Source: Stenotrophomonas sp. 57 (GTDB lineage Bacteria; Pseudomonadota; Gammaproteobacteria; Xanthomonadales; Xanthomonadaceae). Taken from it: a DNA stretch of 64,000 nt. The notes beneath the pieces are model-generated. The model was given only the letters and a program-made list of their open reading frames with translations, was not told the origin of the DNA and searched no databases. Made by a program: the position numbers and the translations under genes. Location of the stretch: positions 804,001 through 868,000 of the forward strand of contig NZ_CP127407.1 of NCBI RefSeq assembly GCF_030291075.1. The letters run 5' to 3'. This document shows, piece by piece, positions 26,438 to 28,319 of the stretch. Each line of letters opens with the position of its first letter. Within the stretch, counting starts at the first letter, position 1.

Positions 26438-27006
26438 CCCGCAAGACCCCGTTGCTGCTGCTCCCGCTGGCCCTGACGCTGGCCCTTGCCGCCTGCAAGC
26501 CGGCGCAGGAACCGACCCCGTCCAGCAGCCAGCCGCCGGCACAGGCACCGACGCCGGCCGCACCGGCCCCGGTCGAGGAAACCCCGGCAGAGCGCACCAC
26601 GGCCGAGTTCCCGACACTGAAGATGAAGGCGGTGGATGGCAGCGACTACGACCTGGCCGCGCACCGCGGCAAGTGGGTGGTGGTGAACTTCTGGGCGACC
26701 TGGTGCGCGCCGTGCCGCAAGGAGATGCCGGAGTTGTCGGCGCTGCATGCGATGCGCAGCAACATCGAAGTGGTCGGCCTGGCGTATGAGGACATCGAAG
26801 CGCCGGAGATGCAGGCATTCCTGACCAAGCATCCGGTGACCTATCCGATCGTGATCGTCGACCCGTTCGACCCGCCGGCTGATTTCGCCACGCCGCGCGG
26901 TCTGCCGCTGACGCACCTGCTGGACCCGCAGGGCAAGCTGGCGCACAGCTTCCTTGGCCCGGTGACTGCCGCCGACATCGAAAAGCAGATCGCTGCTGCC
27001 AAGTAG
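26434..27006 (+). CDS. TlpA/ResA-like thioredoxin-fold lipoprotein
   Basis: A 190-residue lipoprotein. The signal peptide ends in the lipobox LALAAC (Cys20 lipidated), a Pro/Ala-rich linker runs to about residue 55, and a thioredoxin fold follows with WATWCAPCRKEM. The redox pair is CAPC near residues 89-92. It is expected to reduce disulfides on the periplasmic side, for example in cytochrome c maturation or peroxide defence. The cis-Pro loop (ATPRGLPLTHLL) is present. It is coupled to yihY by an ATGA overlap. The stop codon lies 2 nt before a 530-bp inverted-repeat region. Confidence 0.88.
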   Translation: MTRKTPLLLLPLALTLALAACKPAQEPTPSSSQPPAQAPTPAAPAPVEETPAERTTAEFPTLKMKAVDGSDYDLAAHRGKWVVVNFWATWCAPCRKEMPELSALHAMRSNIEVVGLAYEDIEAPEMQAFLTKHPVTYPIVIVDPFDPPADFATPRGLPLTHLLDPQGKLAHSFLGPVTAADIEKQIAAAK

Positions 27007-27008
27007 TG

Positions 27009-27203
27009 GGTTGGTCGGCAGGGCCTGCGGCCCTGCACCCGCTACGAGCCAAGGCAACAGCTGAAGCAACAGCCGAAGCAACGGCGGGTTTCCTGAGAGA
27101 TGGCGGGGTGGGGCCGTTTGCGGGAGACGCCGTAAACCCGTCCCTGGGGGCTTGGCCGCGGCATCCATGCCGCGGACACTCCCGCCACCGGACCCACCCC
27201 GCC
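27009..27203 (+). repeat. Left copy of a structured inverted-repeat element
   Basis: About 195 bp. It begins with a 30-bp sequence (27009-27038, ggttggtcggcagggcctgc...) that is perfectly repeated in inverted orientation at 27508-27537. It continues with a caacagc/gaagcaac-rich stretch, a long imperfect stem (27102 onward pairing with the end near 27203) and an internal perfect palindrome ccgcggcat-cc-atgccgcgg (27156-27175). The right copy has the same order of parts with diverged sequence. No open frame is plausible. It may be a MITE-like or REP-derived element, or a structured RNA/terminator between convergent tlpA-like and ppk2. Confidence 0.8.
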
Positions 27204-27236
27204 TTCGAAAGATCTCCGCGATCTGCCCGCTCTTCT

Positions 27237-27260
27237 GTAGAGCCGAGCCATGCTCGGCTC
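27237..27260 (+). repeat. SMAG/REP palindrome inside the tlpA-ppk2 region
   Basis: gtagagccgagccatgctcggctc at 27237-27260, one GTAG-headed element. It lies in the centre between the two inverted copies of the larger element. Confidence 0.75.
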
Positions 27261-27302
27261 AGATCTCACAGATATCGAGATTTTCGATTTCGATTGGGAC
27301 TC

Positions 27303-27321
27303 ATCCACGCATGGCGTGGAT
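27303..27321. repeat. atccacgc-type short palindrome
   Basis: atccacgc-atg-gcgtggat with 8-bp perfect arms. Third member of this family in the window; central to the 530-bp region. Confidence 0.65.
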
Positions 27322-27347
27322 CCATCAGATCGTCGGAATCTGTCAGA

Positions 27348-27537
27348 GGTGGGGCGGTGTCGGAGTGCGGGGTGTCAGCCGCATGGATGCGGCTGCCAAG
27401 CCTACACGGACGTACTTGCGGCGTCCCCGCACTCCGACACCGCCCCGCCATCCCACGGAAATCCCGCTCTGGCTGTTGCTGTTGCCGTTGCTTGAAGGCT
27501 TCTGCAGGTGCAGGGCCGCAGGCCCTGCCGACCAACC
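27348..27537 (-). repeat. Right copy of the structured inverted-repeat element
   Basis: About 190 bp, homologous to 27009-27203 in reverse orientation. It carries a perfect 22-bp stem (27351-27372 with 27425-27446) that encloses a perfect palindrome cagccgcat-gg-atgcggctg (27376-27395), then the purine/pyrimidine caac repeat and the 30-bp terminal repeat (27508-27537). Compared with the left copy, the internal palindrome differs at two positions in each arm and both changes are compensated, so pairing is conserved. The last base of the element coincides with the ppk2 stop codon. Confidence 0.82.
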
Positions 27538-28319
27538 TATTCCTCGACCGGGAAGTCTTCGATCGGCTTCAGCACATCGTAGTGCTCGCGATGCAGCTTG
27601 CCCTTCAGCTTCGGCAGTTCCGGCAACGGTGCATCCACGCGCGTGTCCGGCAACCGGTCCAGCAGGTTGCGCACCAGGGTCAGCCGGCCCAGCCGCTGGT
27701 CGTTGAAATCCACCAGCGTCCACGGCGCCGCCTCACGATGGGTGGCGCGCAGCATCGCCTCGCGGGCCTCGGTGTAGGCGCTGTACTTGCTGCGCGACTT
27801 CAGGTCCACCGGCGACAGCTTCCAGCCTTTCAGTGGATCGACATGGCGTTCGCAGAAACGCTTCTCCTGCTGCTCCTGGTCCACGCACAGCCAGTACTTG
27901 AACAGCAGGATGCCGTCGTCCACCAGCAGTTGTTCGAACACCGGTGCCTGGCGCAGGAACTGCTGGTACTCGGTTTCGCTGCAGTAGCCCATCACCCGCT
28001 CAACGCCGGCGCGGTTGTACCAGCTGCGGTCCATCAGCACGATCTCGCCGGCGGCGGGAAGATGCGAGGCGTACCGCTGGAAGTACCACTGCGTGGCTTC
28101 GCGGTCGGTCGGCTTGGGCAAGGCCACGACCCGGCACTGGCGAGGGTTGAGGTGCTGGCTGATGGCCTGGATCGCGCCGCCCTTGCCCGCCGTGTCACGT
28201 CCTTCGAACAGCACCAGCAGGCGTTGCCCGCTATGCTGCACCCAGCGCGCCATCGCGGTCAGTTCCAGCTGCAGTGGCAGCAGCAGTTCGTCGTACGCCT
28301 TGCGCTTGAGCTTGGCCAT
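27537..28319 (-). CDS. ppk2: Polyphosphate kinase 2 family protein
   Basis: A 260-residue one-domain PPK2 enzyme that transfers phosphate between polyphosphate and nucleotides. Walker A is FEGRDTAGKGG (38-48). Walker B and lid are LMDRSWYNRAGVERVMGYC (95-113), and the VHVDPLKGWKLSPVD-like segment completes the class signature. The subclass (class I GDP-preferring, II or III) cannot be fixed from motifs alone. The ATG at 28319 is used; GTG at 28325 is also in frame. Neither has a good ribosome site. Convergent with the TlpA-like gene, separated by the inverted-repeat region. Confidence 0.9.
   Translation of the reverse strand: MAKLKRKAYDELLLPLQLELTAMARWVQHSGQRLLVLFEGRDTAGKGGAIQAISQHLNPRQCRVVALPKPTDREATQWYFQRYASHLPAAGEIVLMDRSWYNRAGVERVMGYCSETEYQQFLRQAPVFEQLLVDDGILLFKYWLCVDQEQQEKRFCERHVDPLKGWKLSPVDLKSRSKYSAYTEAREAMLRATHREAAPWTLVDFNDQRLGRLTLVRNLLDRLPDTRVDAPLPELPKLKGKLHREHYDVLKPIEDFPVEE

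Follow-up and report, generated by a model that had tools for sequence, protein, structure and literature searches.

The 530-bp gap between the TlpA-like gene and ppk2 of Stenotrophomonas sp. 57 is filled by a tail-to-tail pair of an old, many-copy folded DNA repeat, which occurs in many genera of one class, the Gammaproteobacteria. This element is ordinary in kind, being a repeat of a known type, but is new in its reach and anatomy. Sequence comparison indicates that its core is homologous to the YPAL/RU-2 repeat and to the Rfam family Ysr224, both from Yersinia, and membership of the YPAL family is very probable. Our best explanation, to which we would give an even chance, is that a YPAL-family element has settled at gene 3' ends and acts as an RNA with a predicted double CsrA/RsmA site. 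The analysis followed a sequence-only reading of a window of 64,000 nucleotides (the whole stretch of DNA analysed, positions 804,001 to 868,000 of contig NZ_CP127407.1), which knew no name for the element. The interpretation offered there was borne out in part: a mobile or structured element is supported, while a REP-derived origin, a terminator and pointwise compensation are not.

The stop codons of the TlpA-like gene (27004-27006) and of ppk2 (27537-27539) bound the inverted pair, which runs from stop to stop (Table 1). The sequence-only reading had seen two inverted copies here with perfect ends of 30 bp, and as an observation this was correct. The ends are identical in inversion over 31 bp (27009-27039 and 27507-27537), a repeat search gives inverted arms of 41 nt at 90%, and the hexamer tracts, long stems and inner palindromes all lie where they had been placed. 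The 22-bp outer stem reported for the right copy is an unbroken run (27351-27372 with 27425-27446) inside a 25-nt stem at 96%, the diverged but paired stem of the left copy extends over 28 nt at 86%, and the inner palindromes of the two halves differ at two sites per arm, the partner base being matched each time. Absent from that reading were a second hairpin in each half, with a 5-nt bulge and a 6-nt loop, the central REP-like palindromes and the fact that both ends abut stop codons. The two copies are of different stem types (left T1, right T2) within one family. The fold energy of the region is -365.8 kcal/mol, against -228.6 (SD 7.1) for 100 shuffles (z = -19.3).

Table 1. Features of the inverted pair (window coordinates; CsrA/RsmA-type loops are predictions)
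Feature	Position	Strand	Basis
Whole inverted-pair element between the two stop codons	27007..27537	.	sequence, repeat search, folding, blastn
Left half-unit	27009..27225	+ (model R1 orientation); most likely folding strand -	half-unit and profile searches
Right half-unit	27328..27537	- (model R1 orientation); most likely folding strand +	half-unit, profile and covariance-model searches
Left end hairpin GCAGGGC..GCCCTGC	27018..27036	+	11 bp past TlpA-like stop codon; sequence reading
Right end hairpin	27510..27528	-	8 bp from ppk2 stop codon; sequence reading
Left hexamer tract, GCAACA/GAAGCA type	27054..27085	+	sequence reading
Right hexamer tract	27466..27497	-	sequence reading, repeat search
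Left long stem, 5' arm, type T1 (partner 27179-27206)	27099..27126	+	repeat search, stem typing
Left long stem, 3' arm	27179..27206	+	repeat search
Left hairpin H2: GCC, 5-nt bulge GTAAA, CCC, loop GTCCCT, GGG, GGC	27129..27151	+	alignment, covariation
Left hairpin H3 (inner palindrome of the sequence-only reading)	27156..27175	+	repeat search, covariation
CATGGATG, first CsrA/RsmA-type loop of left half (predicted)	27162..27169	-	motif
CAGGGACG, second CsrA/RsmA-type loop of left half (predicted)	27139..27146	-	motif
Right long stem arm, type T2 (partner 27425-27449)	27348..27372	-	repeat search, stem typing
Right long stem, other arm	27425..27449	-	repeat search
Right hairpin H3	27376..27395	-	repeat search
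Right hairpin H2	27400..27422	-	alignment, covariation
CATGGATG, first CsrA/RsmA-type loop of right half (predicted)	27382..27389	+	motif
CACGGACG, second CsrA/RsmA-type loop of right half (predicted)	27405..27412	+	motif
Central spacer: GTAG-tagged REP 27237-27260, REP-like palindrome 27303-27321	27226..27327	.	sequence reading

The spacers of paired units are a hot spot for other palindromic repeats, which vary from copy to copy and include GTAG-tagged REPs, GTGTCGACC..GGTCGACAC and GGGGTCAGATCCGTTTTCC.... Short ORFs also run through the element (e.g., 27266-27535 on the - strand) and might enter annotations as spurious hypothetical proteins.

A blastn search with the whole element found matches in 24 of 41 genomes, its own genome counted. 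Within that genome, where loci were collected by half-unit searches and then by an iterated profile over 54 fetched stretches, 53 of the 54 loci held at least one unit over 60 bits and the remaining locus fell just below; the unit is thus not peculiar to the focal gap. These 53 loci comprise 29 tail-to-tail pairs (+ then -), 23 single units and 1 other arrangement. The end hairpin, with up to 2 mismatches, occurs at 51 places genome-wide, of which 43 lie within fetched unit stretches; because 8 lie outside them, 53 loci is a lower bound. A generic terminator hairpin of the genome was ruled out by these few places. Genes were placed with a simple caller based on codon usage. Of the 42 outer ends that look towards a gene's 3' end, 40 are 2-16 bp away from its stop codon, with the remaining two at 360 and 380 bp; none of the 28 that look towards a 5' end comes closer than 24 bp. 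Of the 29 pairs, 9 are flanked by convergent, 17 by co-directional and 3 by divergent genes; the element is therefore not solely a convergent-gene device. Outside Stenotrophomonas, gene 3' ends are likewise preferred on either side of the unit (27:7 and 20:11 at up to 100 bp, from rough gene calls and with rows dropped where an ORF lay over the unit), and such rough calls give no clear preference of folding strand relative to gene strand there.

To our knowledge, the YPAL repeat has been described by that name in Yersinia only. De Gregorio et al. (2006) reportedly found it just behind stop codons and are said to have seen YPAL-bearing transcripts accumulate more. The likeness to the Stenotrophomonas unit is extensive: both are intergenic palindromic folds in tens of copies (about 168 bp for the Yersinia palindromic sequence, about 210 bp for the half-unit here), with the same two apical hairpins, a double CANGGAYG and orthologous sites both occupied and empty (here at the focal site), and 40-47 of 54 aligned core columns are identical in four Stenotrophomonas cores picked by hand. 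The RU-2 sequence given in Table 1b of PMC2759123 includes the core, with loops CAAGGATG and CATGGATG 24 nt apart. The Stenotrophomonas element differs in its tail-to-tail doubling, its end hairpin and hexamer tract and its stems, which are unrelated in sequence, and it is found in many more genera. Ysr224 (RF02770, a Yersinia sRNA) shares the H2-H3 core, and the left half aligns over its whole model, but at 29.9 bits (E up to 10) against a gathering score of 70; at the gathering threshold, Rfam gave no match in 18 loci. Several Ysr224 copies, 80-91% identical, are described for Y. ruckeri (PMC12112432), and another source lists Ysr224 among the most prevalent sRNAs (PMC9029176).

For the host family, a covariance model of the core (113 positions, from 43 core sequences) gave matches at E up to 1e-4 in 71 of 247 genomes, which span 16 of 54 genera; for the Gammaproteobacteria, the figures at the same cut-off are 63 of 369 genomes and 56 of 271 genera. 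These scans scored few candidates per genome, and copy numbers from them are lower bounds. In a phylum sample of 398 genomes, in which the number from other classes is not itemised, 25 had a match at E up to 1e-6, all of them in Gammaproteobacteria. Among the matches listed, a letter-pattern scan of named genomes returned Xanthomonas, Marinobacter, Rheinheimera and Shewanella, and also Moritella, Microbulbifer, Methylotuvimicrobium and Sodalis. RU-2 itself matched 17 plasmid records (Enterobacterales, 14 of them predicted conjugative) and 5 of 5,426 E. coli genomes. On two E. coli plasmids and one chromosome (L315-L317), an alcohol dehydrogenase gene is followed, about 60 bp on, by a YPAL copy with 75% identity to RU-2 that has broken transposase genes as neighbours. 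A phage or plasmid origin was considered and rejected, the left 122-bp core having no blastn match among 50,697 phage and 72,556 plasmid records.

Pairing within the core is kept despite turnover of stem sequence. In alignment A1 (43 cores), two-sided changes occur in 24 of 38 pairs and cover 265 cells, where shuffling gives 105.6 (SD 9.2). Alignment A2 consists of 94 rows returned by the model from 71 hand-chosen loci, mostly outside Stenotrophomonas; one place, L166, is present twice, once per strand, and 63 of the 94 contain the letter pattern that fetched part of them. Although its stems have little sequence in common, 94.0% of cells are paired; both sides vary in 36 of 38 pairs (93 distinct rows), and the covariation score is 0.816, against 0.180 for shuffled and at most 0.112 for slid alignments; A2 was fitted to the covariance model and leans towards it, but the gap to the shuffles is large. 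The covariation that had been suspected from two copies thus stands above background in many, on four of five measures. The fifth, further pair types, did not exceed shuffles in A2 (112 against 123.9) and is not counted as an excess in A1 (39 against 36.1). Conservation reaches beyond the loops, to the bulge and the junctions.

A folding strand tolerates G.T pairs, which on the opposite strand read A.C. In the model direction, isolated A.C outnumber isolated G.T by 70:20 in A2 (94 rows, p = 1e-7) and by 43:8 in A1 (43 rows, p = 7e-7), where a single column pair supplies 12 of 47 A.C cells; counted by locus, A.C prevail in 34 against 10 with 6 ties (A2) and in 27 against 2 with 2 ties (A1). The ratio is weaker, 22:9 (p = 0.03), in the 31 A2 rows without the fetch pattern, and a cruder count over 139 units, with the third stem type misaligned, gave 63 A.C against 48 G.T. 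From this excess, the folding strand is most likely opposite to the model and runs outward from the centre (- in the left half and + in the right). The asymmetry fits RNA and single-stranded DNA alike, and it is likely that one or other of these, on the strand given, has been under selection. The strand annotated by Rfam for Ysr224 is opposite to the one favoured by wobble pairs; this mismatch counts against our explanation, and the wobble result also suggests that Rfam may have placed Ysr224 on the wrong strand. Wobble pairs as a strand indicator for this element are new, as far as our literature searches reach.

On the folding strand, the loops of H2 and H3 are both C-ANGGAY-G hexaloops and would, as judged from their letters, belong to the ANGGAN hexaloops closed by C-G of CsrA/RsmA-binding RNA; the variable columns coincide with the free N of ANGGAN. 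At least two CANGGAYG occur on this strand in 123 of 139 Stenotrophomonas units (23 nt apart in 119 of the 123) and in 69 of 94 A2 rows (23 nt apart in 62 of the 69), against 0 of 139 and 1 of 94 on the opposite strand and 0 of 940 block-shuffled sequences. The 31 A2 rows without the pattern have the fixed H2 loop letters in 29-30 of 30, Y in 27 of 30 and two sites in 22. A bias of model R1 towards such loops is possible. As given in PMC7652899, the CsrA SELEX consensus is RUACARGGAUGU with mostly six-base loops, and RsmE-RNA structures have an ANGGAN loop. The same source states that most SELEX hairpins have four pairs or fewer and that longer stems may weaken CsrA binding; the H3 stems exceed four pairs, which counts against binding. 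Conservation of the bulge and junctions is also not explained by CsrA alone. Among well-assembled genomes, csrA was matched in 53 of 54 with the element and 227 of 260 without (p = 0.015), and among all 369 class genomes in 58 of 63 and 255 of 306 (p = 0.085), the five element-bearing genomes without a csrA match including one that is 98% complete; this co-occurrence is compatible with the CsrA idea and no more. That CsrA/RsmA binding is the selected function is a prediction from the loops, to which we would give slightly less than an even chance.

The literature searched contained no published link of YPAL or Ysr224 to CsrA, and a search by motif letters gave nothing relevant among the matches listed; the double hexaloop on the folding strand is new as far as these searches reach. 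Two AYGGAY loops are also found in TwoAYGGAY (Rfam RF01731), for which CsrA binding has been predicted from the loops (PMC4333381) and whose hosts include gammaproteobacteria (PMC2864571), but this model gave no match at E up to 10 in the tested stretches. CsrB, RsmY, RsmZ and RsmU, the last described as a 3'-UTR-derived RsmA-binding RNA of Xanthomonas (PMC7694677), are work-alikes with hairpin-presented GGA sites; these are single-locus RNAs, whereas the element here is a dispersed repeat.

We would picture the gap as a tail-to-tail pair of a YPAL-family structured element, mobile or formerly mobile, that settles directly 3' of stop codons. Besides its end hairpin and hexamer tract, each half has a core whose stem, a rod of about 24 bp, carries the two hairpins at its top; as RNA, the folding strand would present its two hexaloops 23 nt apart, and each half could hold one CsrA/RsmA dimer. 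A transcript passing through the pair from either gene would carry one half in the folding sense, in a 3' untranslated region or in read-through antisense RNA, with the predicted effect of tethering or soaking up RsmA and of protecting the RNA end. A broader proposal, which we put forward tentatively, is that these are class-wide mobile repeats built around a conserved double CsrA/RsmA site, whose tens of copies behind stop codons may scatter sites over 3' ends as a distributed sponge or tether, and that Stenotrophomonas copies swap apical hairpins while leaving the site intact.

The focal site was compared across 70 orthologous stretches, of which 60 had two flanks fit for use in a tree. The comparison of insertion sites between strains suggested in the sequence-only reading revealed both occupied and empty sites. 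Most members of the S. maltophilia clade carry the element there; more distant species often lack it and have a gap of 9-100 bp, or in some cases an unrelated longer gap, and sister pairs differ (G087 with and G088 without, G100 with and G065 without). These sites and the high copy number are also what would be expected of a selfish miniature transposon, in which single-stranded DNA would fold for excision and insertion, at terminator-like targets, by an enzyme encoded elsewhere, while the RNA is idle. YPAL is described as mobile, with target duplications of 3-26 bp and targets that span or adjoin dyad symmetry (PMC2229807), a strand-specific fold of single-stranded DNA would yield the same wobble asymmetry, and conserved positions outside the loops would be in keeping with a recognition site. 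However, no target-site duplication is evident by eye at the focal site, a single site, and a unit match over 20 bits is found in 42 of the 44 stretches fetched for 22 further sites of two relatives, indicating that the element would move rarely now. A selfish transposon also does not predict an ANGGAY hexaloop twice, and no autonomous partner came to light among the three Y1_Tnp loci and the enclosed genes described below. We regard this explanation as less likely than the one favoured above.

Candidates for a partner were rejected. Between distant unit pairs, L257 (units 1.5 kb apart) encloses an oxidoreductase and a DsbA-like gene, as named from reading translations, and the content of L072 is an IS3-type insertion inside a unit. 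Nor was an IS with the unit's ends seen, 43 of the 51 end-hairpin places being in fetched stretches and 8 outside. Long TIRs are reported beside two S. maltophilia transposase genes (PMC3733652). A RAYT/TIRtron origin was set aside, as the inverted repeats at the three Y1_Tnp loci that pass the Pfam cut-off are different ones and the unit is absent there, its best partial match being 37 nt at 78% (E 0.006). One of these RAYT-like genes (L031, L032 and L033; G000 4337304, 2767626 and 1028813) lies amid GTAG-tagged REPs, and two have their own inverted repeats of 24-26 bp. The REP-derived option of the sequence-only reading fails on these loci and on the lack of a GTAG end: the SMAG/REP sequences of S. 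maltophilia are likewise intergenic palindromes, and one lies inside the focal spacer, but they are short, the unit being far longer and not beside the RAYT-like genes found. The insertion in L072 (about 1575-2820) sits at the foot of hairpin H3, and in L046, L049 and L059 the corresponding position has a short footprint resembling TGATCTGGCCCCC or TGATCA, which looks as if an IS3-type element targets the hairpin and can leave.

It is also conceivable that the hairpins stop polymerase or block 3' exonucleases, as a bidirectional terminator or 3'-end stabiliser that needs no special protein. This would fit the closeness to stop codons, the high stability of the hairpins on either strand and the greater accumulation of transcripts attributed above to De Gregorio et al. 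However, no U-tract follows the end hairpin of the focal sequence, whichever direction is read, so that it does not qualify as a Rho-independent terminator, 20 of the 29 pairs lie between co-directional or divergent genes, and the conserved loops and wobble asymmetry would go unexplained. We consider such a role improbable; of the candidates listed in the sequence-only reading, a mobile hairpin element and/or a structured RNA stand, and the bidirectional terminator is not supported.

Stem types and inner palindromes are found in mixed combinations. When orthologous units are compared one to one, the stem types match in 36 of 47 (22.7 at random), the H2 types in 20 of 34 (15.1) and the H3 types in 10 of 31 (10.2), with 16 H3 and 13 H2 comparisons untypable and 6 units without a single partner. 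The inner hairpins thus change as whole paired modules at orthologous sites, which is new as far as our literature searches reach. This turnover suggests that the paired changes between the focal copies, read earlier as point compensation, are mainly due to whole-hairpin exchange between copies; the changes are indeed matched, but within Stenotrophomonas they look like exchange of modules. That exchange, with template-switch correction in palindromes, accounts for all matched changes with no selection for structure is highly improbable: the mixed combinations and the agreement figures fit it, but class-wide 36 of 38 pairs change on both sides and neither process alone would give a strand-specific wobble excess.

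In summary, one family unites a repeat named from Yersinia, an Rfam sRNA and the nameless intergenic hairpins of dozens of genera, and the family so unified gains a testable function in its predicted CsrA/RsmA site. If CsrA/RsmA binds, any model of the Csr/Rsm system would have to take account of the copy number and expression of these repeats, and the family would clearly exemplify a bacterial transposable element that spreads the binding site of a regulator.
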